A program made the position numbers and the translations under genes. The notes below the pieces were generated by a model. It saw only the letters and a program-made list of their open reading frames with translations. It searched no databases and had not been told where the DNA came from. A DNA stretch of 50,425 nt, from NCBI GenBank assembly GCA_011390345.1, contig JAABSP010000042.1, positions 1-50,425 on the forward strand, written 5' to 3'. This DNA is from Desulfobacteraceae bacterium. Lineage in GTDB: Bacteria > Desulfobacterota > Desulfobacteria > Desulfobacterales > JAABSP01. Below are positions 7,930 through 26,415 of this stretch, in pieces. Numbering within the stretch: the first letter of the stretch is position 1; each line of letters begins with the position of its first letter.

Positions 7930-8304
7930 ATGAAACCGATTCTGAAATGGCAATACGACCAACTGCTCAAGGAACTGCTTCTGCTTCAGGAGCATCAGGC
8001 AGATCCCTCCTGCCCCTGCGAGACCGAAAGCGAGATGTGTGTGCGGAAGCATCTGCTTATCATCGAAGCCTATGCCCAGGAGACCGTCTCCATCGAGGAG
8101 AATCAGGAGTATCAGGAGAAGCTGACCCAGCTCGCCGAGGAAGCCAAAGCCTTCCGCAAGGCCGAAGAGGCCGCGCTCCGGGGGGAGGAGACCCTCTATC
8201 CCTTTGATCAGATGGCGTGGCCCCGGACATGGCGAAAGGAATTTGAAGCCTACAGTCTGGACGGAGAGGTTGCAGAGGAGGCCGAAAGTGAAGAACAGGG
8301 ATAA
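7930..8304 (+). CDS. Small acidic protein of unknown function
   Basis: 124 residues, not recognised. ATG at 7930 has a strong ribosome-binding site (AAAGGAGG, eight bases upstream); an earlier in-frame ATG at 7894 lacks one. The protein is helical and Glu-rich, with a Cys pair in SCPCETESEMC near residues 26-35 followed by VRKHLLIIEAYAQET. Its tail overlaps the start of the trehalose enzyme by 17 bases, and the Shine-Dalgarno of that enzyme lies inside this gene, so the two are translationally coupled. A linked role with the trehalose enzyme is an inference from this overlap only. Confidence 0.65.
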   Translation: MKPILKWQYDQLLKELLLLQEHQADPSCPCETESEMCVRKHLLIIEAYAQETVSIEENQEYQEKLTQLAEEAKAFRKAEEAALRGEETLYPFDQMAWPRTWRKEFEAYSLDGEVAEEAESEEQG

Positions 8305-11300
8305 AGCCGATACAGAAAAGAGGGACAACCGTTCCATCTTCGATTTCAATGCCGTCATCTTCGACTTGGACGGCGTTGTCACCGATACCGCATCTGTCCA
8401 CGCCCGGGCATGGAAGGAGATGTTCGACAGCTATCTCAAAAAGCGGGAGGAGCGGGAGAACAGTTCCTCTCCCCCTTTTGACATCAAAAAGGACTACCAC
8501 AAATATGTGGATGGAATGCCCCGGTATGACGGCGTGGAGACATTTCTGGCCGCAAGGGGAATCGAGCTGGAGTACGGCTCTCCTGATGATCCGGCCGGAA
8601 CCGAGACCGTCTGCGGCCTGGGCAACCGGAAAAATGAGCTGTTCCAGAAGATTTTAAAGGAAGAGGGGGATGTCAAGGTCTACCATTCCACGGTGGATCT
8701 GATTGTAAACCTGCGGGAGAAAGGCATCAGGACCGCGATCGTCTCCTCCAGCAAGAACTGCAGAACCATTTTGGAGAAGACCGGGCTGACGGATCTTTTC
8801 GATGCCCGGGTGGACGGGATCGACGGCGCGGAGCAGAACCTCAAGGGGAAACCTGCGCCCGACACCTTTCTGGCCGCGGCCCGGCAGCTAGGGGTCCGGC
8901 CGGAGCAAGCCGTGGTGGTGGAGGATGCAATCTCCGGCGTGGAGGCGGGCCGTAGCGGAGACTTCGGCTGGGTGGTCGGCGTGGACCGGAATGGGATCAA
9001 TGATGCACTTTACCAAAACGGTGCGGATCGGGTGGTCTCGGATCTCAAAGAGCTGGATGAATCCCCGGGGCAATCAGATAAAAGAGCATCAGATGAGAGG
9101 GAATCAGATCGGGAAGAATCGAAAGAATCTGCCCGGAGTTCGAAAAGAGATGCCGGAGATGTTCCTTTGGCACTGGACCATTTTGAAGAGATCCGGGACC
9201 GGCTCAAGGGCAAGATCCCTACGATATTTCTCGATTTCGACGGAACCCTTGCCCCGATTGTGGATCAGCCGGACCAGGCCAACCTCTCCGAAGAGATGCG
9301 GAAGATTTTGAAAAAGCTCGGCCGGATCTGCACCGTTGCCGTTGTCAGCGGCCGGGGGCTTTCGGATGTGGAGGATCGGGTGGGCCTGAAGGATCTCTAT
9401 TATGCTGGAAGCCACGGATTTGAAATCCACGGCCCAAACGGTGAAAATTTCCAGCATGACGAGGGGGTAAAGGCTCTGCCCGATCTGGATGCGGCCCAAA
9501 GCTTTCTCGAGGAAAAGCTTGCAGATATCGAAGGTGTTCTGGTGGAGCGGAAGAAATTCTCCATTGCCATCCATTACAGGAATGTGGCCGAAGCTGATAC
9601 CGATGGCGTGGCCCGGGCCGTGGATGCGGCCGCAGCAGAGCGGGAGGGGCTTCGCAAGTCCGGCGGCAAGAAGATCTTCGAGCTGCAGCCCGATATCGAC
9701 TGGCACAAGGGCAGGGCCCTGGAGCATCTGATGAAGACCTTCGGCGCAGGAGCACATCCGGACGGAAAACTTCCCCTCTACATCGGCGACGATCTGACGG
9801 ATGAGGATGCCTTTGCCGCGATCGAGGAGACCGGCATCGGGATCGTGGTGCATGATCCATCCCAGGAAGGCCGGAGAAGCACAAAAGCGCAATACCGGCT
9901 TGCCGATGTGGATGGGGTGATCGACTTTCTGGAGAGATTTCTTGAAGTCGTGACCGAGGAGCAGTCCGAAACGAACTGGACCCTCACCTATGAGGGGTTC
10001 GATCCGGAAAACCAGGGGCTTCGGGAGGCCCTCTGCACCTTGGGCAACGGCTACTTCTGCACCCGGGGCGCGGCCGAAGAGTCCAAAGCAGACGATATCC
10101 ATTATCCCGGAACCTATCTGGCCGGCGGATACAACCGGCTCAAGACCGAGGTGCGGGGTAAGATCGTCGAAAACGAGGATCTGGTCAACATGCCCAACTG
10201 GCTGCCCCTCACCTTCCGGATCGAAGACGGGGAATGGTTCGATCTCCAAAAGGTGAAGATCCTCTACTACCGGCAGGATCTGGATCTGAAACGGGGAGTC
10301 CTCCACCGGAAGATCCGGTTTCGGGACGATGAGGGCCGGATCACCCGGGTTCAGAGCCGCCGTCTGGTTCACATGAGCTGCTCCCATCTCGCGGCACAGG
10401 AGCTGACCGTTTCCCCTGAAAACTGGGAGGGGAGCATCGAGTTCCGGACAGCACTCGACGGCCGGGTGACGAATGCCGGCGTCGCGCGCTACAGCGATCT
10501 GAACGGCCATCACCTGCGGCCCGTCGAGGAGGAAGTCTTCGGCGATGAGATCATCGGCATCCGGGTGGAGACCTCCCAGTCTCATCTCCAGGTAGCCCAG
10601 TCCGCGCGGACCCGGATCTACCGAAACCATCAGCCCGTCACTGTAGAGCGGAAAACCCTTACCGAGTCAGGATACGCTGCCCAATATTTCCGGGTGAATG
10701 TGGACCGGAAGATCCCGGCCACGGCGGAGAAGGTGGTGAGCATGTACACCTCCCGGGACCCGGCCGTCTCGGATGTCTGTCTGGAGACCCGGAAGGAGGT
10801 GCTGGATGCCGGAACATTCGATGAGCTTCTGCGAACTCAGACCCTGATCTGGGAGCAGCTCTGGAGCTACTTCGACATCACCTTCGAGGACCGGAACCAG
10901 AAGCGGGGGGACCGGATCAGCAGAATTCTGCATCTCCATATCTTCCACCTGCTCCAGACCGCATCGGTCAACAGCATGGTGATGGACCTGGATGTGGGGG
11001 TTCCCTCCCGGGGCTGGCACGGCGAGGCCTACCGGGGCCATATCCTCTGGGATGAACTCTTTATCTTCCCCACCTACAACTGGCGACTTCCCGAGATCAC
11101 CAAGGAGCTGCTCATGTACCGGTACCGCCGGCTGGCAGAGGCCAGAACCGCAGCCCGGGAGGCCGGATTCAAGGGCGCGATGTATCCCTGGCAGAGCGGC
11201 AGCAACGGCAAGGAGGAGAGCCAGAAGATCCACCTCAACCCCCGGTCGGGCCGCTGGATTCCGGACAACAGCAACCGCCAGCGCCATGTGAACGCGGCCA

Positions 11301-12385
11301 TCGCCTACAATATCTACCACTACTATCAGGTGACCCGGGATATCGAATTCCTCGCGTTCTACGGCGGAGAGATGATTTTGGAGATCGCCCGCTTCTGGTC
11401 CAGCATCGCGACCTTCAACGCGAAGAGCGGCCGGTACGAGATTTCCGGGGTGATGGGCCCCGACGAATACCACGAGGCCTACCCGAACGCGGAAAGACCT
11501 GGCCTGGACAACAACGCCTACACCAATGTCATGGCGGTCTGGGTGCTGGAACGGGCCATGAAGGTCCTCGATATCCTGCCGGAGGATATGGGGGTCTATC
11601 TCCGGGCAAAGCTCGATATCGACGATGAAGAGCTTTCCCGCTGGGAGGATATCACCCGGAAGATGAAGATCCCCTTCCATGACAACGGCATCATCAGCCA
11701 GTTCGAAGGGTATGAGCAGCTCGAGGAGTTCGACTGGGAGGGGTATAAGGAGAAGTACGGCGATATCCAGCGCCTGGACCGGATTCTGGAATCGGAGAAT
11801 GACTCTCCGAACCGGTACAAGCTCTCCAAGCAGGCCGATGTGCTGATGCTCTTCTACCTCCTCCCGGCCGAGGAAATCTCGGAGATATTCGAAAGGCTCG
11901 GCTACCCCTTCGAGTACGAGACCATCCCGAAGAACATCGACTATTACCTGAAGCGGACCGCGCACGGCTCCACCCTGAGCTGGATGGTCCACTCCTGGGT
12001 GCTGTCAAGAAGCGACCGGGCCCGATCATGGGAACTCTTCAACGATGCGCTATGCAGCGATGTCGCGGATATCCAGGGCGGAACCACCCCCGAGGGCATC
12101 CATCTCGGCGCGATGGCCGGGACAGTGGACCAGATGCAGCGGGGCTACACCGGCATCATGGGCCGGGAGGACGTGGTCTGGTTCGACCCCTGCCTGCCGG
12201 AGGAGCTGGACCGGCTGAGCCTTCAGGTGCGGTACCGGGGCTGTTTTCTCAAGGTGGAGGTCACAACGGAAAGATTGACCGTCACCGCACTGCGGGCAAG
12301 GGCCTATCCCATCAAGGTCGGCTGCAATGGAGAAGTGATCGAGCTGGGGGAACAGGAGAGCCGGGTCTTCGATATCAGCGGATAG
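8288..12385 (+). CDS. Three-domain trehalose enzyme: beta-PGM-like HAD + OtsB + GH65 phosphorylase
   Basis: 1365 residues from the GTG at 8288, chosen because AGAGGAGG lies six bases upstream. Domain 1 (about 20-265) is a beta-phosphoglucomutase-like HAD with FDLDGVVTD (Asp26, Asp28). A charged linker (about 265-298) follows. Domain 2 (about 298-555) is trehalose-6-phosphate phosphatase with FLDFDGTLAP (Asp316, Asp318) and IGDDLTDEDAF. Domain 3 (about 570-1365) is a glycoside hydrolase family 65 phosphorylase; GVMGPDEYHE carries the general-acid Glu1060. Together they could take trehalose 6-phosphate to trehalose, then to glucose and beta-glucose 1-phosphate, then to glucose 6-phosphate. The order matches mycobacterial OtsB1 (Rv2006). 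No trehalose-6-phosphate synthase is in the window. Domain calls are secure; substrate of the GH65 part is inferred. Confidence 0.92.
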   Translation: MKNRDKADTEKRDNRSIFDFNAVIFDLDGVVTDTASVHARAWKEMFDSYLKKREERENSSSPPFDIKKDYHKYVDGMPRYDGVETFLAARGIELEYGSPDDPAGTETVCGLGNRKNELFQKILKEEGDVKVYHSTVDLIVNLREKGIRTAIVSSSKNCRTILEKTGLTDLFDARVDGIDGAEQNLKGKPAPDTFLAAARQLGVRPEQAVVVEDAISGVEAGRSGDFGWVVGVDRNGINDALYQNGADRVVSDLKELDESPGQSDKRASDERESDREESKESARSSKRDAGDVPLALDHFEEIRDRLKGKIPTIFLDFDGTLAPIVDQPDQANLSEEMRKILKKLGRICTVAVVSGRGLSDVEDRVGLKDLYYAGSHGFEIHGPNGENFQHDEGVKALPDLDAAQSFLEEKLADIEGVLVERKKFSIAIHYRNVAEADTDGVARAVDAAAAEREGLRKSGGKKIFELQPDIDWHKGRALEHLMKTFGAGAHPDGKLPLYIGDDLTDEDAFAAIEETGIGIVVHDPSQEGRRSTKAQYRLADVDGVIDFLERFLEVVTEEQSETNWTLTYEGFDPENQGLREALCTLGNGYFCTRGAAEESKADDIHYPGTYLAGGYNRLKTEVRGKIVENEDLVNMPNWLPLTFRIEDGEWFDLQKVKILYYRQDLDLKRGVLHRKIRFRDDEGRITRVQSRRLVHMSCSHLAAQELTVSPENWEGSIEFRTALDGRVTNAGVARYSDLNGHHLRPVEEEVFGDEIIGIRVETSQSHLQVAQSARTRIYRNHQPVTVERKTLTESGYAAQYFRVNVDRKIPATAEKVVSMYTSRDPAVSDVCLETRKEVLDAGTFDELLRTQTLIWEQLWSYFDITFEDRNQKRGDRISRILHLHIFHLLQTASVNSMVMDLDVGVPSRGWHGEAYRGHILWDELFIFPTYNWRLPEITKELLMYRYRRLAEARTAAREAGFKGAMYPWQSGSNGKEESQKIHLNPRSGRWIPDNSNRQRHVNAAIAYNIYHYYQVTRDIEFLAFYGGEMILEIARFWSSIATFNAKSGRYEISGVMGPDEYHEAYPNAERPGLDNNAYTNVMAVWVLERAMKVLDILPEDMGVYLRAKLDIDDEELSRWEDITRKMKIPFHDNGIISQFEGYEQLEEFDWEGYKEKYGDIQRLDRILESENDSPNRYKLSKQADVLMLFYLLPAEEISEIFERLGYPFEYETIPKNIDYYLKRTAHGSTLSWMVHSWVLSRSDRARSWELFNDALCSDVADIQGGTTPEGIHLGAMAGTVDQMQRGYTGIMGREDVVWFDPCLPEELDRLSLQVRYRGCFLKVEVTTERLTVTALRARAYPIKVGCNGEVIELGEQESRVFDISG

Positions 12386-12433
12386 GAAAAACGCCCAGAC
12401 CTGCAGAGGAAGGGGCAAGGGGAAGATCGGGGC

Positions 12434-12520
12434 TCAGGATGCCTCGATCTCCTCAACCCGGTTTTGCCGGTTGACGTATACCAGCTCGGCGATAAAGGAT
12501 TCGTAATCCTTAATTATCAA
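12434..12520 (-). pseudogene. Possible 3' remnant of a lost gene
   Basis: A 28-codon frame (TTG start, TGA stop) reading KDYESFIAELVYVNRQNR then VEEIEAS. Composition and codon use look like real coding sequence, unlike the AT-rich spacer upstream of it. No ribosome-binding site, no recognised family. Best read as the tail of a deleted small protein; could be chance. Confidence 0.2.
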
Positions 12521-12581
12521 TCATTGATCTGTAATCATCGGTTTACTTTGGGCAGATAGTGGGGGCTGGGGAAAAATCAAC

Positions 12582-12614
12582 AAAAAAAGGGCTCACGGAA
12601 AGAACCGTAACCCC
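12582..12614 (-). terminator. Terminator downstream of tRNA-Phe
   Basis: Read on the minus strand: GGGGTTACGG, loop TTCTTT, CCGTGAGCCC, then seven T. The stem has two mismatches in ten pairs. It lies 14 bases after the tRNA 3' end, the expected position. Confidence 0.65.
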
Positions 12615-12627
12615 TTGATTTTTAAGA

Positions 12628-12700
12628 TGCCGAGGGACAGAATCGAACTGCCGACACGGGGATTTTCAGTCCCCTGCTCTACCGACTGAGCTACCTCGGC
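12628..12700 (-). tRNA. tRNA-Phe (GAA)
   Basis: 73 bases on the minus strand. Acceptor stem GCCGAGG / CCTCGGC with discriminator A, D-arm GCTC-AGTCGGTA-GAGC, anticodon arm GGGGA-CTGAAAA-TCCCC with anticodon GAA, variable GTGTC, T-arm GGCAG-TTCGATT-CTGTC. CCA is not encoded. All four stems pair with only one weak pair each at most. Followed by a terminator hairpin. Confidence 0.95.
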
Positions 12701-12718
12701 GCAGACAAGAATAAATAT

Positions 12719-13525
12719 TTACCCCTTCTGCGGTTCATTGTCAAGATTTTTTTGCCGCAGGTCCCCAAAAATATATTGGATCAGGGCGGCAGCGGTGATG
12801 GCTGCGGTCTGCGCCCGCAATATCCGGGGGCCCAAATAGACCCGCAGAAATCCGGATGCCTCGGCCATTGCCGCCTCTTCCGCGCTTAACCCGCCTTCGG
12901 GGCCCAGAAGGATCAAAAAGCCTTTTCCCGGATTCTTCTCCTTTAGATCCAATAAATCTGCCGGCTGGTCATCTTCGGGCATGGTCTCCCAGAAGAGGAT
13001 GCGGGTTTGGTAGTCTTTCGCCTTTTCCAGAAGCGCTTCAAAGGGGATCGGCGGGTCCATTTTCGGAATGCGGCTCCTGCGGCACTGCTTCAGGGACTCC
13101 CGCGCGATCTTCTCCCAGCGCTGACGGCGGGCATCGACCTTTTTTGCATCGAGCTTGGGAATCGTTCTGCTCGAAAAAAAGGGCATCCATCGGGTCATGC
13201 CCAGCTCGGTCAGGGGGCGGATCAACTCCTCCATCTTCTTCTCTTTTAAAAAGCCCTGGGCTACGGCCAGCTCGATGGGGGATTCTCCGGTTTGATATCC
13301 GGTTGAAAGGCATTGTACGGTTACACCGCTGCCTTCGATCTTTAGAATTTCCGCCCTGATCTCCCATCCTGTGCCGTCGAAGAGGAGAACCCGCTCCCCG
13401 AGGCCCAATCGCAGGACATTTTTGAGATGGTTGGCCTCCTGCCCGATGATTTCCAGAAGCTGCTTTTCTTCTGTGCTCTCCGCAGGGGAGGGGAACTTCT
13501 CCGGGGAAATAAAGAAGCGTCGCAT
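12719..13525 (-). CDS. rsmE: 16S rRNA (uracil1498-N3)-methyltransferase
   Basis: 268 residues, within the usual 240-270. It methylates U1498 of 16S rRNA using S-adenosylmethionine. The N-terminal PUA-like part contains HLKNVLRLGLGERVLLFDG; the C-terminal SPOUT knot is visible as ILLGPEGGLSAEEA and LGPRILRAQTAA (the usual last motif is LG-RILR-ETA, so Gln replaces Glu). It sits three bases downstream of the nickel transporter ATPase stop on the same strand, so it may be read through from that operon, although the products are functionally unrelated. Confidence 0.93.
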   Translation of the reverse strand: MRRFFISPEKFPSPAESTEEKQLLEIIGQEANHLKNVLRLGLGERVLLFDGTGWEIRAEILKIEGSGVTVQCLSTGYQTGESPIELAVAQGFLKEKKMEELIRPLTELGMTRWMPFFSSRTIPKLDAKKVDARRQRWEKIARESLKQCRRSRIPKMDPPIPFEALLEKAKDYQTRILFWETMPEDDQPADLLDLKEKNPGKGFLILLGPEGGLSAEEAAMAEASGFLRVYLGPRILRAQTAAITAAALIQYIFGDLRQKNLDNEPQKG

Positions 13526-13528
13526 GAT

Positions 13529-14257
13529 CTATTTGTGCTCATGGGGATGGGAGCCGTGGATATGGGCATGAACATGCTGGTGGAGCTTGACTGTTGTATC
13601 GGTCAGGATCTTTCCCCCCTCCATTGCATGTACTTTGTCGGTGGTGTCGGCCAGAAAATCCATCTCGTGGGAGATGAGAAGATAGGCGATGTCCAACTGA
13701 GCCAGCCGATCCATGAGTCTTTCCCTGGTTCGTGCGTCCAGACCGGTTGTGGGCTCGTCTAAAAGAAGCATCTCCGGCTCCATGGCAAGAACCGTGGCCA
13801 GAGAGACAAATCGTTTCTCTCCGCCCGAGAGCCGGTGCGTGATACGGTCTTCGAATCCCTCCAGCCCAAGATCGGCCAGGGTGCTTCGCGCGATCTCGAT
13901 GGACTCTTTCCGGCTCTTGCCCATGTTGAGGGGGCCGAAGGCCACATCCTCCAAGACGGTGGGGCAGAAGAGCTGGTCATCCGCATCCTGGAAAAGCAGG
14001 CCGATCTTTCGGTAGATGTCGGAGAAATCCTTCTCCTCCCAGAGGCGGCTGCCAAAGACCTCAACGGTTCCGGCCGTGGGGCGCAGCAGACCCATGATGA
14101 TGAAAAAGAGGGTGGTCTTGCCCGATCCGTTGGGGCCTAATAGGCCGATCCGCTCTTTGGGATAGACCGCAAGACTCAGCTCTTTTAAAATGGGTGTGCC
14201 GCCGGGATAGCCAAAGGCAATATTATCGAGTTTTACAATGGGCTGTTGATCTTCCAT
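13529..14257 (-). CDS. nikO: Nickel/cobalt ECF transporter ATPase with His-rich tail
   Basis: 242 residues. ABC ATPase of the energy-coupling factor nickel/cobalt importer: Walker A GPNGSGKTT, Q-loop FQDADDQLF, signature LSGGEKR, Walker [13 protein letters not shown], switch His in LLISHEMDFL. The C-terminus is a metal-binding-type tail in which eight of the last seventeen residues are His (HQHVHAHIHGSHPHEHK). ATG at 14257 is taken because the protein begins MEDQQPIVKLDNIAFGYPGG; the frame stays open further upstream inside nikQ. It overlaps the nikQ 3' end by 25 bases. The His tail supports nickel rather than cobalt as cargo, but this is inference. Confidence 0.9.
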   Translation of the reverse strand: MEDQQPIVKLDNIAFGYPGGTPILKELSLAVYPKERIGLLGPNGSGKTTLFFIIMGLLRPTAGTVEVFGSRLWEEKDFSDIYRKIGLLFQDADDQLFCPTVLEDVAFGPLNMGKSRKESIEIARSTLADLGLEGFEDRITHRLSGGEKRFVSLATVLAMEPEMLLLDEPTTGLDARTRERLMDRLAQLDIAYLLISHEMDFLADTTDKVHAMEGGKILTDTTVKLHQHVHAHIHGSHPHEHK

Positions 14258-14997
14258 TCGATTCCTATGAGCAGGGCCATTATTGCAAGTTGAACCGCAG
14301 CGCCGATCCAGTCTGCGGTTTTGGCTTCGAATCGGTACAGAGAATAGAATTTTCCTTGAAACCCCCGGCAGCGCATGGCCTGATGCACCCGTTGTGCCCG
14401 GGCAGAGGCCTGCACAAAGAGCATTCCCAGCAGATAGGCATAGGTCTTGTAGGTGTGCAGGTTCGTGCCGGGCTTGAACCCCCGGATCTTTGCCGCGCGC
14501 AACAGTCGCCCATACTCGGCCTCGATCACAAATATATATCGGTAGGTGAGCAGGAGCAGATAGACGATCTTCTCCGGAACCTTGAGCTGGTCCAGGGTCT
14601 GGCCCAATTTGGCGAAATTCATGGTGGCCACCCATGCGGTGAAGGCCAGCAGGATCGCATTGGACTTGAGGGTGATCTGCGCGCAGAGAATGATCCCCTC
14701 CCGGGTCCCGGCCAGCGGCCCGATCCTGAAAAGCGGAGTTCCGGTCGTGGTAAGGGGCAGCACCAGCCAGAGCAGGATCAGAAAGAGCCAGAGCGGAAGC
14801 AGCCTTTTGATCAGCTTCTTGGGATCGAGTCGGGCCGCGATGACCAGCACCAGAGCGAAGATCAAAGCCGCTCCCAGAGTGGCAAATGCCTGGGAGAGCG
14901 CCACCACAAAGGAGAAAAGGGTGGCAAGAATCACCCGGGAGCGGGGGTCTTCCCGATGTATGGGGGAGTTACCCGCGGCAAAGGGTTCGTCGATCAT
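14233..14997 (-). CDS. nikQ: Nickel/cobalt ECF transporter transmembrane protein
   Basis: 254 residues, CbiQ/NikQ family: the T-component that links the substrate-binding membrane protein to the ATPase. Several hydrophobic helices (VILATLFSFVVALSQAFATL, LLPLWLFLILLWLVL) and the family coupling region ARAQRVHQAMRCRGFQGKFY, which contains the Ala-Arg-Gly coupling-helix pattern. Its ATG overlaps the nikL stop (ATGA), indicating translational coupling. Confidence 0.9.
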   Translation of the reverse strand: MIDEPFAAGNSPIHREDPRSRVILATLFSFVVALSQAFATLGAALIFALVLVIAARLDPKKLIKRLLPLWLFLILLWLVLPLTTTGTPLFRIGPLAGTREGIILCAQITLKSNAILLAFTAWVATMNFAKLGQTLDQLKVPEKIVYLLLLTYRYIFVIEAEYGRLLRAAKIRGFKPGTNLHTYKTYAYLLGMLFVQASARAQRVHQAMRCRGFQGKFYSLYRFEAKTADWIGAAVQLAIMALLIGIEWKINSPL

Positions 14998-15779
14998 GCG
15001 CCGAACTCCTCCTCTTCTTTAAGTCCTTCCGGCACTTCCGGCACTTCCGGCACTTCCGGTCCTTTATGTCCTTTTGGTCCTTCCGGCCTTTCCTGAGCCG
15101 GCTTTCTCCGCCGGGAGGCCACATAGGCCGCAACCCCCACCAGGCCGAAAATATAGCCGATACCGGCAAAGATATCCTGAACAGTGGGTCCTTTCATCTC
15201 CTGCTGCGCCAGAAACCGCATCAGTGGTGCAAGTTTCTCATCGAGCTTTCCCTCCAGGCGTCTCTCCCATTCTCTTTCCATGGCCGCCTCGATGATCTGC
15301 CGGATCTCGGTTCGGCTGAGGCCAGGGGACGGCCCGGGTTCTGGCATTGGGATTTCTTCCGATGCTGAAGTCGCGGGCAGAAGGGGTTCTGATCTTTCAA
15401 TAATCGCAGTTGGATCTGCGGTCCCGTCGGTTTCGGATATCTCTTCGGGCCGGATGGTCCATTCTCCCTGATGTCCCAATCCCGCGGAGACCGTGACGGT
15501 CAATTCCGTTCGCCGGGGGATCTCAAAGGAGAAGGCTCCGCTTTTATCGGTCTTTCCCGTGACCAGAATTGTTCCGTCCGGGGCCGTCACCGTCACTTTT
15601 CCCTCGTTGACCCCTTTCCCCGCGCTGAACTTGCTCTCCACATGCGCGGTGCTGCCCTCCACCCATGCAAAGACCGTGATGCGGTGGGCGTTGGCCGGAA
15701 GAGGCGTCAGCATGACCGCGATGATGATCAGAAACCGTGCCGCGGCCCGATGGCATATGAACTTTGGTATAATCTGCAT
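14994..15779 (-). CDS. nikL: NikL-type accessory protein of nickel ECF transporter
   Basis: 261 residues from the ATG at 15779, chosen because a classical signal peptide starts there (IIPKFICHRAAARFLIIIAV, cleavage at ANA-H). The mature protein begins with His (HRITVFAWVEG), then a carboxypeptidase-regulatory-like beta-sandwich (VTVTAPDGTILVTGKTDKSG), a helical stretch and one C-terminal membrane helix (AGIGYIFGLVGVAAYVASRR). This is the NikL/CbiL pattern, a periplasmic-facing extra component in NikKMLQO systems. The C-terminal tail is low-complexity (PEVPEVPEVPEG), coded by a 9-base tandem repeat. An earlier in-frame ATG at 15827 would put 16 charged residues before the signal peptide and is less likely. 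Confidence 0.8.
   Translation of the reverse strand: MQIIPKFICHRAAARFLIIIAVMLTPLPANAHRITVFAWVEGSTAHVESKFSAGKGVNEGKVTVTAPDGTILVTGKTDKSGAFSFEIPRRTELTVTVSAGLGHQGEWTIRPEEISETDGTADPTAIIERSEPLLPATSASEEIPMPEPGPSPGLSRTEIRQIIEAAMEREWERRLEGKLDEKLAPLMRFLAQQEMKGPTVQDIFAGIGYIFGLVGVAAYVASRRRKPAQERPEGPKGHKGPEVPEVPEVPEGLKEEEEFGA
15026..15059. repeat. 9-bp tandem repeat inside nikL
   Basis: CTTCCGGCA is present three times in perfect tandem, plus a partial fourth copy; imperfect CTTCCGG/CTTTTGG echoes continue to about 15090. In the protein it encodes the Glu-Val-Pro repeat of the cytoplasmic tail. Being a multiple of three, copy-number changes would keep the frame. Confidence 0.85.
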
Positions 15780-15849
15780 TCTTTTTCCCCATCGGTAAAA
15801 ACAGATTGAATCATCCGGTCGAATCATCCGGTCAAATTACCTGTTCGAA

Positions 15850-16455
15850 TTATCCGGGATAACCGGGCAGCAGCGAAGGCTGCACCTTTTTTAAAAATGC
15901 CACGCAGAAGGCGGTGATAATTCCCTCGATGATCATCACCGGCAGATTGGCCGCGACAACAGCGCCGGAGACCTCTATAAAACTCTCCTGGGTGAAGACC
16001 AAGGCAAGCCCCACAAAGATGGCCGCAAAAAAGACCGACAGCGCGCCGCAGCCGAATGCCGCGGTAAGGGAGATCGGGGGCTTTTTGGGAATCATGAAGC
16101 CGAAGAGATAATGGCAGATCACCGCAGGTCCTGCCATTATCACGGTGTTGACCCCCAGTGTGGTGATGCCGCCGAATCCAAAGAGAATTCCCTGAAGCAC
16201 CAGCGCCACCAGGATCGCGGGGAATGCGGCCCATCCGAGCATCAGCCCCACGATCCCGTTGAGGATGAGGTGGACGCTGGAGGGGCCCACCGGCACATGG
16301 ACCAGGGAGGCCACGAAAAAGGAGGCCGACAGGATGCCGGTCTGGGCGATCCGGTCGAAATCGAGTTGTTTCAGCCCGATGGCTGTGCCGGCCCCGGCAA
16401 CGGCCATGCCAGCCGCGATGACGGGACCCGAGAGTACGCCTTCTGCGATATGCAT
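15850..16455 (-). CDS. nikM: Nickel/cobalt ECF transporter substrate-binding membrane protein
   Basis: 201 residues, CbiM/NikM family. The N-terminal MHIAEGVLSGP is the hallmark: the Met-His-Ile start coordinates the metal in the known NikM structure. Multiple membrane helices follow (FVASLVHVPVGPSSVHLILN with further conserved His; GITTLGVNTVIMAGPAVICH). It is the S-component that captures Ni2+ or Co2+. It lies between nikK (24 bases upstream) and nikL (70 bases downstream). Confidence 0.93.
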   Translation of the reverse strand: MHIAEGVLSGPVIAAGMAVAGAGTAIGLKQLDFDRIAQTGILSASFFVASLVHVPVGPSSVHLILNGIVGLMLGWAAFPAILVALVLQGILFGFGGITTLGVNTVIMAGPAVICHYLFGFMIPKKPPISLTAAFGCGALSVFFAAIFVGLALVFTQESFIEVSGAVVAANLPVMIIEGIITAFCVAFLKKVQPSLLPGYPG

Positions 16456-16479
16456 TCGGGGTTCCTTATCCTGTTTCTG

Positions 16480-17259
16480 CTATTTTGTCTTCCATTCCGT
16501 AAACCGGACCCAGATCACTGCGCCCAGTTCCACGGCCTTCTCCTGGCCGTTCTGGGGGAGGGTATAATCTGCGCTGTTCAGCGCGGCAAATCCCCACCAT
16601 CCCGGCACAGGGGGAGCGTAGGAGAAGAGGCCGTTTCCGTCGGCCTTGACGATCTGGGTTATCATGTAGTCGGTCTCCGGGATCGCCTTTCCGTCCTGAT
16701 TGTAATACTCCACCTCCACCTCGGCAAAGGGGACAGGCTTTCCGTCGAGCTTCACAATCCCCTGGAAGAGGTTCCCGGCATAAAGACCAAATGGCCGGGC
16801 CAGGGGGACAATCTCGGTCTTCAATCCGATTTCAGCGTCCCATCCTTCCTCATCGCCGAATGCGGCCACAGCGGTTTTGGTGTAATGTATGATGAAGCTG
16901 TCTTCGGCCGGCTCCCAGTAGGGCGCGGGCTCCATATAAAGGGTGTGGACGCCTGGTCGGTTGAGGGGGTAGTCGGCCTCCCATGCGGTATTGTCCATCA
17001 CCTTGGTCTTTTTGAGCCGATCCGTGAGATCTGTCTTCTCTCCGTCCAGATAGGCTCCGAAGGCTTTCGGCTTTTCCATCTCCATGCCGATCCCCTCAAA
17101 GGGGTGGGTGAACGCGAGGATCAGATGAACGGCCCGCTCCTCCTCCGGCATCACCATGGAGTCGGACGGGATGAGCATCCCGAAGTGCGCATTTGCCGCG
17201 CCTGTGGAAAGAAGAACCAGAACTGCTGCCAGAAGCCCGAAAAACATTCCTTTTTTCAC
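16480..17259 (-). CDS. nikK: NikK-type periplasmic DUF4198 protein
   Basis: 259 residues from a GTG at 17259, chosen over an ATG at 17313 because AAAGGAG lies six bases before it and the signal peptide ([17 protein letters not shown], cleavage at ANA) starts immediately after. The mature N-terminus is AHFGMLIP, and DUF4198 motifs follow ([55 protein letters not shown]). DUF4198 proteins accompany nickel ECF importers as NikK and probably deliver metal. It is the first gene of nikKMLQO; a promoter and a terminator-like leader hairpin lie upstream. The sequence ends at WKTK with no membrane anchor. Confidence 0.82.
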
Positions 17260-17279
17260 GATTTTCTCCTTTTTCCGAC

Positions 17280-17334
17280 AAAAAAAACCACGAACTTCAG
17301 CCCGCACCTTCATGATACGGATGACCTTCGTGGT
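17280..17334 (-). promoter_or_regulatory. Terminator-like hairpin in the nikK leader (attenuator candidate)
   Basis: In the nikK leader, minus-strand sense: ACCACGAA, 32-base loop, TTCGTGGT, then eight T, ending about 20 bases before the nikK start codon and just before its ribosome-binding site. A small competing hairpin can form at the 5' arm (GGACC-ACGAA-GGTC), which would break the terminator. Together with a 150-base leader this suggests transcription attenuation. No known nickel/cobalt or cobalamin riboswitch motif was recognised, so the effector is open. Confidence 0.4.
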
Positions 17335-17421
17335 CCGGATGTCGCTTTTGATTCTGATTGTCGATAGTTTACTGCGTTCGTTTCCAAAGGTTGCCGGCTT
17401 CTGCCCGCAGATTTTCGATTC

Positions 17422-17450
17422 TCTATAGCCTAAAAAGACTCCCGGGTCAA
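17422..17450 (-). promoter_or_regulatory. Sigma-70 type promoter of nikKMLQO
   Basis: Minus strand: TTGACC at 17450-17445, exactly 17 bases, TATAGA at 17427-17422. This predicts a start near 17415 and a leader of about 155 bases before nikK. No NikR-type GTGTTAC half-sites were found nearby. Confidence 0.6.
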
Positions 17451-17479
17451 TGCTCTTTTTGAAACGGTTCAGATGGCTC

Positions 17480-17508
17480 TTGACTCCCCGGCCTTAGATG
17501 GATAAACT
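17480..17508 (+). promoter_or_regulatory. Candidate promoter for the DUF1573 selenoprotein gene
   Basis: TTGACT, 17-base spacer, TAAACT, placing the start of transcription about 100 bases before the ATG at 17617. The -35 box is good and the -10 is moderate. It lies 30 bases from the divergent nikK promoter. Confidence 0.4.
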
Positions 17509-17616
17509 GCACATATGGCAAATGTCCATGCAGGTTAAGGTTAATTATCCGAAAAAGCCGTCTTTTTAAAGATGGCCGAAAAACTTTACCAGAGAATTGA
17601 AAAAGGAGTAGCAGGT

Positions 17617-18351
17617 ATGAAAAGAAAAATATGCGCTCTTGCGATGACGCTTTTCATCGCGCTTTTTGCATCGGCCGCATTCGGGGCAGCGGATGCGGAG
17701 GGTCAGGGGGCCCCCGATGCAGTGGTTCCCGATGCAGAGTTCCAGTTCCCTCCCACGGTGGAGGGGGATGAGGTGATCCATGATTTTGTGATCAAAAACA
17801 CCGGGACCGCACCGCTGGAGATTCAAAAAGTCCAGACCGGCTGAGGGTGTACAGCGGCCTCCTACACGAGGCAGATCCCCGCCGGCGGCGAGGGAACAGT
17901 CAAGCTCAAGGTCAATACCAATGGATTCGGCGGCAGAACCCTGAAAAAGTCTGCCACGGTTCATACCAATGATCCGAAGAACAGCAGGCTCACCCTGACC
18001 ATTATGGGTCAGGTGGAGAAGTTCGCCTCCATCTCCCAGACCCGGGTGCGGTTGAATGGCCCCGCGGGGCAGCCCGTGATCCAGAAGGTGACGATCTTTC
18101 CCGAAGAGAAGTATCCTTTCAAGATCACCGATGTGCAGATCAACAAGGAGGGGGATATCAAGATCCTGCTCGAAGAGACCGAGCAGGGGCAGAAGAAGGG
18201 ATATGTCCTGACCATCGAAAACCTCCGGCAGGAGAAGAGCCGGTATTTCGATACGGTGATTTTAAAGACCGACAGCAAGATGAAGCCGGAGATTCGGATC
18301 AGTGTTTACGGCAACATCTTTGAGCCGGTGGTGGAGCAGAAGGGCTCGTAA
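17617..18351 (+). CDS. DUF1573 periplasmic protein, probable selenoprotein (in-frame UGA = Sec76)
   Basis: Read through the TGA at 17842-17844 this is one 244-residue protein. Residues 1-22 are a signal peptide (MKRKICALAMTLFIALFASA, cleavage near AFGA). Then comes a DUF1573 Ig-like domain: EVIHDFVIKNTGTAPLEIQKV, then QTG-U-GCTAASY, then IPAGGEGTVKLKVNTNGF and TVHTNDPKNSRLTLTIMG. Family members usually read C-G-C-T at this place, so the TGA replaces exactly the first conserved Cys, giving U-G-C-T. The frame is open on both sides and the family continues without a gap to 18351. A short hairpin (GCCTC, loop CTACAC, GAGGC) lies 13-28 bases after the TGA, about where bacterial SECIS elements sit, although its loop does not show the usual early G. 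ATG at 17617 has AAAGGAG. A second beta domain follows to the end. Likely an envelope redox protein; a nonsense mutation is the alternative. Confidence 0.8.
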
Positions 18352-18418
18352 AGCACTTGTAAGGCAAAAGCTTTTTTCGGGAAGGTCTGTTTTTCCGAAA
18401 TATTTAAAAAAACATTTT

Positions 18419-18469
18419 CCGGCGCGCGTAAAGCCCTTTTTTCGGGCTCTCCCGCGCGCCGGTTTTTTT
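18419..18469 (+). terminator. Strong rho-independent terminator
   Basis: CCGGCGCGCG ... CGCGCGCCGG, a perfect ten-pair GC stem enclosing a second small hairpin (AGCCC/GGGCT), followed by seven T. It ends the selenoprotein transcript and separates it from the HAD gene, whose ATG lies 15 bases further on. Confidence 0.85.
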
Positions 18470-18483
18470 ATGGAATATCTCCA

Positions 18484-19119
18484 ATGAACATGAATTCGAT
18501 CAGGGTTGTGATCTTCGACTGCGACGGGGTTCTATTCGATACTGTGCAGGCCAATAAATCCTATTACAATCGGGTGCTGGCCAGATTCAACAAGCCGGAG
18601 ATGACCGGGGAGCAGTTTGCCTATGTCCATATGCATACGGCAGACGAGTCCATTGCGCACCTCTTTCCGGACGAGAAGGAGTTCGAGGCCGCTCAGAAGT
18701 ACCGGAAGGAGATGGGATATGATCCCTTTATTCCGGAGATGATAATCGAGCCGGGGCTGATGGCGCTGATAAAGAGGCTGAAGCCTGAGTACAAGACGGC
18801 TGTGGCGACCAACCGGTCAGATACCATGCCCCGGGTGGTGGAGGCGTTTGAGCTGTCAGATGCTTTTGATCTGATTGTGACCGCGCGGGATGTAAAGCGG
18901 CCAAAGCCGCATCCGGAGCAGCTTTTTCGGGTGATGGAGCATTTCGGGGTTGGGCCCCATGAGGCGATCTATTTGGGGGATTCTTCGGTGGATGAGGCCG
19001 CGGCCAAGGGCGCAAATATCTGTTTTGTGGCCTATGATAACCGAGATCTTCAGGCCGATTTTCATATTACGCGGCTGGAACAGATGGTTGAGATTCTGGG
19101 GCTTTCTTCGGTTGATTGA
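18484..19119 (+). CDS. HAD-family phosphatase (phosphoglycolate phosphatase-like)
   Basis: 211 residues. HAD motifs: motif I FDCDGVLFDT (nucleophile Asp and general acid Asp), motif II VATNRS, motif III KPHPEQLF, motif IV YLGDSSVDEAAA. The helical cap between motif I and II fits subclass I (Gph/PGM-like). Substrate cannot be told. The start is weakly supported because no clear ribosome-binding site lies between the preceding terminator and the ATG at 18484; a second ATG three codons in is the alternative. The gene lies after a terminator, so it needs its own promoter or some read-through. Confidence 0.82.
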   Translation: MNMNSIRVVIFDCDGVLFDTVQANKSYYNRVLARFNKPEMTGEQFAYVHMHTADESIAHLFPDEKEFEAAQKYRKEMGYDPFIPEMIIEPGLMALIKRLKPEYKTAVATNRSDTMPRVVEAFELSDAFDLIVTARDVKRPKPHPEQLFRVMEHFGVGPHEAIYLGDSSVDEAAAKGANICFVAYDNRDLQADFHITRLEQMVEILGLSSVD

Positions 19120-19151
19120 AAGGACAAATGACTCAAAGGACATAAACGACA

Positions 19152-19271
19152 TAAAGGACCATGGACTGAGGTTCAGAAGAGGGAAATGACGTAAGGGATG
19201 ATGGGCTGGGTTTCAGGAGACGGAAATGATGAAAGGGGCGATGGGCTGAGTTCAGAACTCGGAAGAAGGCT
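19152..19271. repeat. Degenerate 40-bp tandem repeat, nearly three units
   Basis: Units start near 19152, 19192 and 19232 and share the pattern AAAGG...GATGGGCTGAG-TTCAG...GGAAATGA. The third unit overlaps the last codons of the pCL gene (stop at 19252-19254), so the array seems to have grown from the 3' end of that gene. It fills the space between two convergent genes. Confidence 0.6.
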
Positions 19272-20412
19272 TGAAAGAGATGTCCGTCGGGCGCTGGGCC
19301 GGGGGGAGGTTTTCCCGGAGCCATTGCCGGAGGGCTTTTTTGACTTCCGGTATGGGGGAGATGCCTTTTTGTAAGATGATCTCTGCTGAAACGCGGGGTT
19401 CCGGCTTCTGGCTGCCGGGCCAGACCGAGCAGCTTTCCACAAGAGGATGCCCACCGATCTTTTCTGCAACGGCTTCTGGGGAAACATTGATGCCCCCAAC
19501 CTGAATGCAGCAGTCCCGCCTTCCCAGAACCAGAAACCGATCCTCTGCCATCCAGTTGAGCCGGTCCTGAAGTGTGACCGGCTCTTCTTTTTTTGGGTCA
19601 TGAAGTGTTCGCAGCAGCTTTTCCTCTCCGGCCCTTTTCCAGTGGGGGAAAAGTTGGAACGGGGATTCGGGTTCGGTTCGATGGCCGATGCCGCCGGTTT
19701 CGGATGATCCGTAGATCTGGGTGAGTCTCTGAAGGTTTTGGGATTTCAACTGCTCGGGAAGCTCTTCGGGGCAGGGGGCCGTGGAGGTGACGCCGAAAAC
19801 CTCTTTGGGAAAGGGAATTCCTGAATCGACAAGATAGCGCCAGTAAAGGGGAAAGGAGACGATGAGATCGCCTGAAGCCAAACCGGAAAAACTTCTTCCC
19901 CGGAGATCCAGTACCGGGATCTTCATCTGAAGCGGCAGAAGGATTGTGAAGAGAAAGCCGTAGATGTGATGGCAGGGGAGGGTGCGGATGATCCGCCGGG
20001 TACGGGGAAAGAGGGTTTGGAGAAAATCGATCTCCTGGAGAAGTCCGGCCCATGAGTGGGCGCAGGGTTTGGGCTCTCCTGTGGTCCCCGATGTGGTGAA
20101 GGTGATGGCTTTGGAATTGCGCTTTCGGCCTTCTGCGACGATCTCAGCCCACTCTCCGATGCTCTTTGCCCGGAGAAGATAATCCTCGATGCCGGCCTCG
20201 TGGAGGTGGTACATCCGGTTTATGCCGGCGCAAAGTGTGAGCCGCTCGATGGAATCGGCTTCGAGACCGCCTTTGCCCACCGGAGTCTTTTCGTCCCATT
20301 CCCAGGGCGGCGGTAGTTCTTCGTTCCCCCCTCGGCCACCGTTCAGGAGGTGATGGGTTATGTCCGCAAGGGTCCGAAGGATAGCCGATGGGGGGAGTTC
20401 GATTTCTTCCAC
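19252..20412 (-). CDS. AMP-forming ligase, probable p-coumarate:CoA ligase for PYP
   Basis: 386 residues, an ANL-superfamily adenylating enzyme, shorter than the usual 500-550. Seen: ATP-binding loop FTTSGTTGEPKP, the HHIYGFLFT helix, YGSSETGGIG, the hinge GRRDCCIQVGGINVSPEAV, and a short C-terminal domain. It lies five bases downstream of the photoactive yellow protein gene on the same strand. In purple bacteria the PYP gene is followed by pcl, which activates p-coumarate as its CoA thioester before it is attached to the PYP Cys; this enzyme is placed and sized to do the same. Substrate is inferred from context, not from active-site residues. No tyrosine ammonia-lyase gene is in the window. 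The conserved C-terminal lysine was not located with certainty. Confidence 0.72.
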   Translation of the reverse strand: MEEIELPPSAILRTLADITHHLLNGGRGGNEELPPPWEWDEKTPVGKGGLEADSIERLTLCAGINRMYHLHEAGIEDYLLRAKSIGEWAEIVAEGRKRNSKAITFTTSGTTGEPKPCAHSWAGLLQEIDFLQTLFPRTRRIIRTLPCHHIYGFLFTILLPLQMKIPVLDLRGRSFSGLASGDLIVSFPLYWRYLVDSGIPFPKEVFGVTSTAPCPEELPEQLKSQNLQRLTQIYGSSETGGIGHRTEPESPFQLFPHWKRAGEEKLLRTLHDPKKEEPVTLQDRLNWMAEDRFLVLGRRDCCIQVGGINVSPEAVAEKIGGHPLVESCSVWPGSQKPEPRVSAEIILQKGISPIPEVKKALRQWLRENLPPAQRPTDISFKPSSEF

Positions 20413-23778: not shown

Positions 23779-24336
23779 CTATAGTCCTGCGATTTCAAGG
23801 GCTGCAAATACCGTGAGGCCGATCATGATAACCCCCACAACGGCCTCGGGGATGGTGGCGTGGAACCATTCCGGCAGGGTCAGCTTTCCAAAGTCGCCCT
23901 TTTGCAGGATCTTGTCCTTGATCTTCGGGTAGATCCGGGCATAGACCATGCCGCCGACGATCATCCCGGTGATGCCGCCTGCAAGCGCGTCCAATGATCC
24001 TTGGCCCACCGCACCGGTGGTGGTTCCGGGGCAGTAGCCCAGAATTGCCATGCCAGCGCCGAAGATGAGCCCGCCGATGCCGGTCGCGCCCCATGAGCCG
24101 GGCTTGATCTTGAGTTCCACAATGCCAATTGCCCGCAGGGAATAGACCCCGATCATCCCGGTGAGAATTGCGGTGAGCATCACCTTCATCACCGTGAAAT
24201 CCATCAGCAGCAACTGGCCAACAATGGCTTCGTATCTGGTCACCTGCCCCTTCTGCAGAAAGAAGCCGAAGAGGATTCCGATGAAAAGACCGATGATGAG
24301 CTGTGCCGGTCTGTTTTCGTGCAGTTTATCAAGCAT
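23779..24336 (-). CDS. YeeE/YedE-family membrane transporter, half-size
   Basis: 185 residues, about half a full YeeE. Helices with the family Cys signature GYCPGTTTGAVGQGS, GGLIFGAGMAILGY and a C-terminal helix. Full-length relatives import thiosulfate (TsuA/YeeE), and half-size pairs are common next to rhodaneses. It follows the other half-size gene by 38 bases and probably pairs with it in one membrane channel. Cargo is inferred to be a reduced sulfur species; selenium transport is an alternative for this family. Confidence 0.83.
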   Translation of the reverse strand: MLDKLHENRPAQLIIGLFIGILFGFFLQKGQVTRYEAIVGQLLLMDFTVMKVMLTAILTGMIGVYSLRAIGIVELKIKPGSWGATGIGGLIFGAGMAILGYCPGTTTGAVGQGSLDALAGGITGMIVGGMVYARIYPKIKDKILQKGDFGKLTLPEWFHATIPEAVVGVIMIGLTVFAALEIAGL

Positions 24337-24374
24337 TTCTCTCTCCTGAATCCTTTTTCAGTCTGTAGCCTTTT

Positions 24375-25046
24375 CTATAAAGCCGAGACCGCATAGAGAA
24401 TATAGGCGGTGATCACTCCGCCGATAAAGAAGGCAAAAAGCGCCATCCAACTGCTGACGGCAAGCTGGAGGGTTCCGGTGATCCCATGTCCGCTGGTGCA
24501 TCCCCGGGCCCATCTCGCTCCGATGATCAGTACCATGCCGCCGATGAAGGCGACTATGATCCGGATCAGCACATTGTCTCCGAACATCTCGTTCCAGAGG
24601 GGCGGAATCGCGGTCAGTTGAAAGTCGCCGGAGAGCCGTGCCGACAGAAAGGCGCCGATGATGATGCCGAAGACGAGCATCCATCCGGTATTGATCTTAG
24701 GAGTTTTCTCCTGATAATACTCGATCTCATAAACCTTTTCTCCCTTGACGGCCTTTTCCACCATTCCGCTGGTTTTGGCATAGGAGCTGGAAGCTCCGAG
24801 CCCCTTGCCTATGAGCAGAAACGCGAGCCAGCTCAGCGCGCCGATGGCGATCCCGGTGGTGTAAGGGGACCAGCGCTTTCGGGTCAGGAGATTGCCTTCG
24901 GTCTCGACCGGTCCCATGGACTTATAGATCGCGGCCGCCTCTCCGTCTTGGGCCCAAGAGGGCCTGAGTCCGCCACCGATCAACAGCAGTGCCCCGGCCA
25001 GCAGAAGAACCGTCATGAAACGAAAACCATATGATTTTACCCGCAT
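24375..25046 (-). CDS. YeeE/YedE-family membrane transporter, half-size, with N-terminal extension
   Basis: 223 residues from the ATG at 25046, which has AAGGAGG; a longer frame upstream lacks a ribosome-binding site. Residues 1-34 look like a signal sequence or first membrane helix, followed by a soluble stretch of about 35 residues and then YeeE helices. The signature GCTSGHGITGTLQ, with its conserved Cys, is the typical YeeE/YedE motif. It starts ten bases after the stop of the MBL/rhodanese gene, so the three genes form an operon. Confidence 0.83.
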   Translation of the reverse strand: MRVKSYGFRFMTVLLLAGALLLIGGGLRPSWAQDGEAAAIYKSMGPVETEGNLLTRKRWSPYTTGIAIGALSWLAFLLIGKGLGASSSYAKTSGMVEKAVKGEKVYEIEYYQEKTPKINTGWMLVFGIIIGAFLSARLSGDFQLTAIPPLWNEMFGDNVLIRIIVAFIGGMVLIIGARWARGCTSGHGITGTLQLAVSSWMALFAFFIGGVITAYILYAVSAL

Positions 25047-25056
25047 AAATTCCTCC

Positions 25057-26415
25057 TTAAGAAACGATCTGGCATCCGGACTTCTGGCATGCGGCCATGG
25101 AGCCAAGGGAGTTCTCCACATGGTCGAAGCCCCTCTGTTTCAGGATGGAGGCTGCGATGATGGCCCTTCTCCCGCTGCCGCAGAAGGTGATAATGGGGCG
25201 GTCTCTGGGCAGTTCGTCCAGATGATCCGGCAGTTTTCCCACATAGATGTGCCGCGCGTCCCTGAGGTGGCCAGATTCCCATTCCTCGATCTCCCGGACA
25301 TCGAGCAGAAGATATCCCTTTTCCTGAAGCTTTCGGATGTCTCCGGCATAGACCGACGGGATCTGGCCGTAATCCCGGCCCGAGGTCTCCCAGGTCTCCA
25401 TTCCGCCGTCGAGATAGCCGACAATCCGGTCGTATCCGAGCCGGATGAGGAGCTTCACGGCCTTGTCCACCTCGTTGCAGTCATTGGCCATCAGCGCGAT
25501 ATCTTTTTCATAGTCGAGAAACCATCCGGCAAAACCCGGCAGCATTCCCGCGGACATGGCATAACTTCCCGGAACATAGGCCCCGGAAAAGGCCTCGGGG
25601 CTTCTCAGATCCAGTACCTGCGCGCCTTTTTCAATGAGCTTTTCAAACGCGCCCGGAAGACAGGGCTTGGGCCGGGGCAGCATGTCCAGGCGCGGGGGCC
25701 CCTCCTGATTGAACTTCTCCATCATTCGGAAATAGGGGGGCTGGTAAGGCTTCTGGCTCACCTTGCTCTCGATGAAGCCTTCCCGGTCCTGCTGCAGGGC
25801 CGGATTGAACTGCCGCTCATAGCCCAGGGTGGAAAATTCCCGGGAGGCCATACCGGAGCCGCAGACCGAACCCGCGCCGTGGGCCGGGTAGAGGATCACC
25901 TGATCTCCTAACGGCATCAGGGTTTTGAAGATGCTGTCGTACTGGAGGCCGGCCACCTCCTGTTTCCGGTCCGGATAGAAGTCGGTGCGGCCCACCTGGC
26001 CAATGAAGAGGAGATCGCCGGTGAAGACCCCGACCGGCTTGTCGCCGTACTGGGTGTCGTAGATCGCGATCGATATGCTCTCATCCGTATGACCCGGCGT
26101 GTGCAGGATCTTGAGCTTCATGTCCCCCAGTTCAAAGGTATCTCCCTCGGAGACTGGATTGCCGTAGCTGAAATCGAGCTGTTTGCCGTGGTAGATTTCG
26201 GCCCCGGTTCTCCTTGCCAGATCCTTTGAGCCGATGACATAGTCCTCGTTCCGGTGGGTTTCGAAGATGTGGGTGATCTGCGCGCCCTTGCAGTGTGCGG
26301 TCTCGATATAGACCTCCACATCCCGGCGGGGATCGATCACCGCGGCACTGTTGCCGTCGCCGATGAGATAGGACAGGTGCGCCAGTCCCTCGGATCGGAT
26401 GATTTCCAGAAACAT
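25057..26415 (-). CDS. Metallo-beta-lactamase / double rhodanese protein
   Basis: 452 residues. Residues 1 to about 215 are an MBL domain related to persulfide dioxygenases; two rhodanese domains follow (about 260-350 and 360-452). The second has the active Cys in ITFCGSGRRA; the first has DCNEV and seems inactive or non-catalytic. The MBL metal motif is THRNEDY (53-59) instead of T-H-x-H-x-D-H, so the His that binds iron in ETHE1-type enzymes is Asn56, and the last His is Tyr59; the His of HTPGHT (109) and Asp134 remain. So sulfur transfer or persulfide handling is likely, but true dioxygenase activity is doubtful. First gene of an operon with two sulfur transporters. AGGAGG lies before the ATG at 26415. 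Confidence 0.85.
   Translation of the reverse strand: MFLEIIRSEGLAHLSYLIGDGNSAAVIDPRRDVEVYIETAHCKGAQITHIFETHRNEDYVIGSKDLARRTGAEIYHGKQLDFSYGNPVSEGDTFELGDMKLKILHTPGHTDESISIAIYDTQYGDKPVGVFTGDLLFIGQVGRTDFYPDRKQEVAGLQYDSIFKTLMPLGDQVILYPAHGAGSVCGSGMASREFSTLGYERQFNPALQQDREGFIESKVSQKPYQPPYFRMMEKFNQEGPPRLDMLPRPKPCLPGAFEKLIEKGAQVLDLRSPEAFSGAYVPGSYAMSAGMLPGFAGWFLDYEKDIALMANDCNEVDKAVKLLIRLGYDRIVGYLDGGMETWETSGRDYGQIPSVYAGDIRKLQEKGYLLLDVREIEEWESGHLRDARHIYVGKLPDHLDELPRDRPIITFCGSGRRAIIAASILKQRGFDHVENSLGSMAACQKSGCQIVS

Follow-up and report, generated by a model that had tools for sequence, protein, structure and literature searches.

A probable OS_HP2-type DUF1573 selenoprotein of a Desulfobacteraceae bacterium and its selenocysteine and cysteine relatives in the Desulfobacterales

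Background

Selenoproteins carrying the DUF1573 domain have been catalogued before. As far as the available excerpts go, the 2008 GOS paper lists OS_HP2 under pfam07610 with the motif UxC and the numbers 2, 2 and 354 (PMC2398784), and two reviews, from 2022 and 2026, give a DUF1573 domain-containing protein (pfam07610/PF07610) with the motif UGC, both crediting Zhang and Gladyshev 2007 (PMC9312934, PMC13188914). The excerpts of the literature on DUF1573 that were at hand describe no function. NCBIfam holds a corresponding profile, NF041425, named 'OS_HP2 family (seleno)protein'.

The gene described here lies in a 50,425-nucleotide stretch of the genome of a Desulfobacteraceae bacterium (contig JAABSP010000042.1 of assembly GCA_011390345.1), which was analysed as a whole and is called the window below. 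An initial annotation, made from the letters alone, took no DUF1573 selenoprotein to have been described; this was mistaken, given the NCBIfam entry and the UxC and UGC motifs printed under pfam07610. Its call was sound as biology, but not new. The window protein matches NF041425 with 147 bits against a cut-off of 100 (profile positions 1–98, residues 37–134); all 40 members of alignment A4 also match this profile, at E ≤ 0.001. It shares both the domain and the U-G-C motif with the OS_HP2 family, and no feature was found to distinguish it; judged by its sequence, the gene is a further example of a catalogued selenoprotein family, namely another species' copy. New here are the spread of the family, the covariation of a stem downstream of the TGA, the repeated exchange of selenocysteine (Sec) and Cys, and the differing gene neighbours of the two forms.

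Results and discussion

A single TGA in an otherwise open DUF1573 gene

The features of the locus are collected in Table 1. Translation of the window shows a frame open from the ATG at 17617 to the TAA at 18349–18351, whose only TGA, at residue 76, lies in the peptide VQTG-U-GCTAASY and is followed by the codons GGG TGT. In the search of the organism's own genome, PF07610 crosses this codon in a single match with one TGA inside it (62.3 bits against a cut-off of 26.1), and with Cys substituted at the TGA the match reaches 68.3 bits over the same cut-off (6.1e-19, residues 41–133). The initial annotation had described an in-frame TGA in an otherwise continuous gene with the same domain on both sides, and the one match spanning the codon bears this out; the observation of an in-frame TGA where the CGCT motif has its first Cys is confirmed. 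The gene very probably uses this stop codon to insert Sec into a small exported protein, and we consider it highly likely that its product is a Sec-containing OS_HP2 protein.

Table 1. Features of the OS_HP2 locus in the window
Feature	Position	Strand	Remarks
OS_HP2-type DUF1573 selenoprotein gene (putative)	17617..18351	+	244 aa and TAA stop, Sec at residue 76; NF041425 and PF07610 matches over cut-offs
Shine-Dalgarno-like AAAAGGAG	17601..17608	+	8 bases 5' of ATG; by eye
N-terminal signal peptide (probable)	17617..17685	+	first 23 residues; by eye; no lipobox seen
TGA codon probably read as Sec, Sec76 of the U-G-C-T motif	17842..17844	+	translation and homologue alignment
Candidate bacterial SECIS hairpin GCCTC-CTACAC-GAGGC	17857..17872	+	12 bases 3' of TGA; predicted stem and upper-stem covariation
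Palindrome CCGGCGCGCG...CGCGCGCCGG then T7, likely terminator between OS_HP2 and HAD genes	18419..18469	+	by eye
HAD-like hydrolase	18484..19119	+	PF13419, 116.3 bits; commonest downstream neighbour of Sec-form OS_HP2

Sec or Cys at the motif across homologues

Searches with the window protein gave matches in 114 of 297 genomes sampled from the phylum and relatives in 217 of 242 genomes sampled from the order Desulfobacterales, and in both many among the matches listed carry one TGA. Alignment with homologues, one of the checks that the initial annotation had named, was carried out on 97 translated loci, a chosen set consisting of the window, the best-scoring places of the phylum and order searches, and 20 places without TGA taken deliberately, which include all nine no-TGA rows among the order-search matches listed. 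The column of residue 76 holds a TGA in 72 loci and Cys in 25, a ratio that is not a frequency because the loci were chosen. With TGA or Cys in 97 of 97 loci, the column agrees with the earlier proposal that Sec replaces the first Cys of the CGCT motif. The TGA is always followed by Gly-Cys (U-G-C in 72 of 72), and the motif of the Cys forms reads C-G-C or C-A-C in 23 loci and C-C-G in two; the Cys forms share the Pfam domain PF07610 with the window protein, and all 25 loci lacking the TGA have Cys opposite it.

A scan of named genomes, biased against TGA in that its patterns spelled Cys, gave 63 loci, 51 of them with TGA and all 51 as U-G-C. These 51 come from records named Desulfobacteraceae, Desulfobacterales, Deltaproteobacteria and similar, and the 12 loci without TGA from four Desulfobacterota-type records and eight others, e.g. 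Kiritimatiellaeota and Bacteroidales. The two surveys overlap, 22 of the 63 loci being identical in DNA to one of the 97, and 30 of the 51 TGA loci are additional. The closest named relatives are Desulfobacteraceae and Desulfobacterales records, in line with the Desulfobacterota host suggested by the initial annotation, and among plasmid records one had a partial match. The survey suggests that OS_HP2 is widespread in Desulfobacterales.

Six extra loci were also read, five of which have U-G-C. The sixth (L207, genome G158) is a DUF1573 gene in which C-U-G-V replaces U-G-C, the TGA following a Cys and the second Cys being absent. In another genome (G420, locus L126) the OS_HP2 match holds an in-frame TAG besides the TGA, near residue 231 of the translated stretch; this TAG is probably a real stop, its position being about where relatives end.

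Candidate SECIS hairpin

Downstream of the TGA, a predicted 5-bp stem pairs GCCTC (17857–17861) with GAGGC (17868–17872) across a 6-base loop. E. coli-type SECIS elements carry a loop G, which the window hairpin lacks. Taken alone, the window hairpin is no more stable than shuffled sequences (z of −0.25, 0.81, −0.65 and −0.39 for four cuts), and an Rfam gathering search of window positions 1–20000 returned no SECIS family and nothing except a tRNA.

A comparison across homologues covered 63 of the 72 Sec forms and 15 of the 23 Cys forms (9 and 8, respectively, were dropped for differing spacing). The upper stem is paired in 340 of 441 cells in the Sec forms versus 57 of 105 in the Cys forms, and sliding it by 1–3 bases in the 63 Sec forms left only 134–200 paired cells versus the 340 in register. 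When the 3' arms were swapped among the 62 distinct sequences, the mean fell to 301.5 (sd 4.6) versus 333 observed, a value reached in 0 of 2000 swaps, which is not a probability as the sequences are related. The lower stem, taken from single folds, shows no covariation (229 pairs observed versus 229.7 in arm swaps), and RNAalifold gave no consensus structure for the ungapped sequences. By this sequence comparison, the upper stem of the candidate hairpin shows covariation among the Sec forms.

Selenocysteine machinery

The initial annotation had suggested looking for the sel genes, and three of the four were recovered over their cut-offs in the organism's own genome: selA (contig C146, 600 bits), selB (C184, 360.1 bits) and selD (C131, 385.9 bits). 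The fourth, selC, was not found in this metagenome-assembled genome (MAG) by six approaches. A search with RF01852, in which 150 of 870 candidates were scored, gave eight hits, each an ordinary tRNA for Trp, Leu, Ser or Arg; tRNA-Sec was absent from the 20-kb stretches round selA and selB and from the whole 13.4-kb selD contig; two patterns gave no tRNA-like match (the three matches of one pattern were assessed by eye); and a query with tRNA-Sec from a genome of the same family gave no match, this last search having been run without a positive control. The MAG is rated 97.28% complete and consists of 199 contigs, and because of this fragmentation a gap in the assembly is the simplest reading; the selC gene may be missing from the assembly. 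Its absence nevertheless counts against the Sec reading. tRNA-Sec was found in nine of ten relatives (75–77 bits), two of them of the same family, and the tenth, without a match, is a 73% complete genome (G406). All five of these nine relatives' genes that were submitted to ARAGORN were called as tRNA-SeC with anticodon TCA.

The selD gene (L077) carries its own in-frame TGA near the N-terminus (GAG-U-ASK) and is probably a selenoprotein gene itself. Two genomes of the same order, G357 (L194) and G340 (L195), hold a second, divergent tRNA-Sec (54.7 bits, anticodon TCA by ARAGORN) besides a normal one of 75–76 bits.

The presence of selA does not separate genomes with a TGA in a match from those without, selA being found in 37 of 40 and 33 of 40, respectively. 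Three Sec-form genomes are without a selA match: G272 (L144), G038 (L204) and G170 (L205). G038, a single contig rated 99% complete, has a clear U-G-C OS_HP2 gene; its selA is possibly divergent or was missed by this first look.

Exchange of Sec and Cys, and paired copies

Sec/Cys exchange is usual at redox-active sites. Parsimony on a tree built from the 97 proteins requires no fewer than 11 switches between Sec and Cys, of which at least four are forced by well-supported branches; the bootstrap of this tree had not converged. Among the loci read, Sec and Cys copies of OS_HP2 also occur together within one genome in G295 (L118 and L161), G492 (L125 and L162), G324 (L111 and L165) and G364 (L123 and L169); the Cys copy is possibly a backup for low selenium, or the pair may reflect a second job.

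Gene neighbourhood of the Sec and Cys forms

To either side of a locus, the neighbour counts took in at most six ORFs and no more than 7 kb; they are limited by contig ends and uncorrected for relatedness, and neighbour clusters were named after Pfam scans of one to a few of their members. Of the 72 Sec-form loci, 52 (the window included) are followed by a gene for a HAD-like hydrolase, versus one of the 25 Cys-form loci, and 36 of these 53 neighbours are separated by at most 25 bases or overlap. In the window the two genes are separated by 132 bases and the terminator-like palindrome, which was not listed by a terminator scan confined to loops of 3–8 bases. The promoter and terminator scan gave one promoter-like site against 0.8 expected from shuffles and three terminator-like sites against 1.8. 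Upstream, a PriA-like helicase (one member named by Pfam) was found in 28 loci, 27 of which are Sec forms.

The Cys-form DUF1573 genes of Desulfobacterales, unlike the Sec forms, often lie in Hdr/formate-dehydrogenase-type clusters and not beside a HAD gene. Such neighbours occur in nine of 25 Cys-form loci (L161–L167, L169 and L145) versus one of 72 Sec-form loci, and comprise a formate-dehydrogenase/NuoG-type molybdopterin oxidoreductase in five Cys-form loci, an HdrA-like flavoprotein in four, FlpD/MvhD in four and an HdrC-like protein in three, the last label being given by eye with no Pfam match at 1e-10. Looser clustering added two further Sec-form loci with distant HdrA-like ORFs. Among the nine no-TGA rows of the order-search matches listed, eight have redox neighbours; the ninth (L168), as judged by eye, is preceded by a PriA-like ORF and followed by a HAD gene, and looks like a Sec locus in which Cys has replaced Sec. 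The Cys-form proteins inspected by eye start with signal-like stretches, whereas Hdr-type complexes are cytoplasmic.

On the minus strand of the window, divergent from the selenoprotein gene, positions 13529–17313 hold a cobalt-type uptake cluster comprising an ABC ATPase, CbiQ, a protein with a weak Ig-like/CarboxypepD match, CbiM and DUF4198.

Protein features and predicted fold

An AlphaFold model built from 40 aligned sequences (mean pLDDT 89.6, pTM 0.72) consists of an N-terminal helix (residues 2–21, confidence being low until about residue 30) followed by two beta-sandwich domains, with the U-G-C motif placed at the turn between strands 67–74 and 78–83. The probable signal peptide suggests export to the periplasm. 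Once the first 25 translated residues are set aside, 64 of 72 Sec forms contain no Cys other than that of U-G-C. His55 is conserved in 99% of the 72 Sec forms and 96% of the 25 Cys forms.

The fold matches obtained with Foldseek and VIA-align are Ig-like and include axonemal proteins, 2qsv and the protease VesC, and PF22544 (HYDIN/VesB-like Ig domain) matches residues 49–131. The HYDIN/CFA65/VesB-like domains resemble the window protein in this match and differ in being known from axoneme proteins and secreted proteases. VesC (6bqm) aligns over 98 residues with a Z of 10.6 and an rmsd of 2.4. Matches over both domains have an rmsd of at least 7.4 in Foldseek, and of at least 10.0 for VIA-align rows with 160 or more aligned residues, and because of these high values the two-domain arrangement is not one that the fold matches share. 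This also holds for PDB 2qsv, a Porphyromonas protein that we take to be DUF1573-like, which resembles the window protein in fold (Foldseek 1.6e-9; VIA Z 10.4, 191 residues aligned, rmsd 12.1) but not in domain arrangement, and whose sequence likeness is weak (E 0.0047, barely better than troponin rows at 0.015). A phmmer search of the PDB with the query P0001 gave weak hits only (best E 0.092). No thioredoxin-like chain was present among the best 50 rows listed by Foldseek or VIA-align, which leaves room for a distant likeness.

Proposed function and alternatives

In the mechanism we propose, SelB and Sec-tRNA would decode the UGA as Sec, aided by the short downstream hairpin. The product, predicted to be exported and to fold into two Ig-like beta-sandwich domains, would carry a single chalcogen pair once mature, Sec76 and Cys78, placed where two strands of its first domain meet in a turn. 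This pair may cycle between the selenol/thiol and selenenylsulfide states, and could serve in periplasmic thiol-disulfide exchange or in the reduction of a small oxidant. We infer such a periplasmic thiol-disulfide or selenenylsulfide role for the U-x-C pair with a likelihood slightly better than even, raised from an even one because of the redox-gene neighbours of the Cys forms. Two observations count against it: the Sec form itself, with redox genes nearby in only one of 72 loci, is without such a neighbour, and the fold matches are Ig-like. Ranked by likelihood, the redox role comes first, metal binding next and a structural staple third.

That the codon is an ordinary stop after residue 75, or the product of a sequencing error or of pseudogene decay, with the ORF from the ATG at 18004 a separate gene, is very improbable. 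The list of ORFs made with translation table 11 does break the gene at the TGA into two, and the MAG yielded no tRNA-Sec. Against this, the same TGA occurs in the 72 translated loci and in 51 of the 63 named-genome loci, the reading frame continuing before and after it, and the domain match crosses the codon. A single-codon sequencing error would not account for the recurrence of the TGA across many homologue loci, and the conservation of TGA and frame across these loci contradicts a frameshift or pseudogene. Genome-wide reassignment of TGA was likewise rejected, as other genes of the window, e.g. the HAD gene, end in TGA.

Two further readings accept the selenoprotein and differ in the task of the motif. 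The U-x-C pair might bind a soft metal ion (Cu(I), Hg(II), Ni or Co) with His55 as a possible third ligand, a reading to which the C-x-C or U-x-C motif together with the nearly invariant His55, and the position of the window gene divergent from the cobalt-type cluster with its DUF4198, CbiM, CbiQ and ABC ATPase genes, lend some weight. It is nevertheless rather unlikely: inspection by eye of the sequences representing the 25 largest neighbour clusters showed no CbiM-, CbiQ- or DUF4198-like protein, and the commonest neighbours are the HAD hydrolase and PriA. Less likely still, the C-x-C or U-x-C motif could serve as a structural staple that takes no part in catalysis, its two residues being permanently bonded across the turn to stabilise the Ig-like domain. 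The modelled position of the motif in a turn of the beta sandwich would suit such a bond, and most of the Ig-like proteins matched in fold are structural or adhesive, but it would be odd for costly Sec to be kept in a widespread family, and to be exchanged repeatedly with Cys, merely for this purpose.

Returning to the redox role, several features offer handles on what OS_HP2 does: the U-x-C pair on an Ig-like fold, the conserved His, the HAD neighbour of the Sec form, and the Hdr/formate-dehydrogenase-type genes next to Cys copies, some of whose genomes also contain a Sec copy at another place. A broader reading, which we put forward tentatively and regard as rather doubtful, is that OS_HP2 may be a redox protein of general use in the periplasm of Desulfobacterales, with an Ig-like scaffold in place of a thioredoxin fold and with two specialised isoforms, a Sec form tied to the HAD hydrolase and a Cys form in Hdr/FlpD/formate-dehydrogenase clusters. 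This reading leans on the relatives found in 217 of the 242 genomes of the order; were it true, the Cys form might serve an energy-conserving complex, either by sensing or transferring electrons or through disulfide repair.

Elsewhere in the window, on the minus strand at 23779–26415, two half-size YeeE/YedE-type sulphur transporters (PF04143) adjoin a fused metallo-beta-lactamase/rhodanese protein, likely as a thiosulfate or sulfane-sulfur uptake cluster, and other in-frame TGA candidates were assessed by eye.
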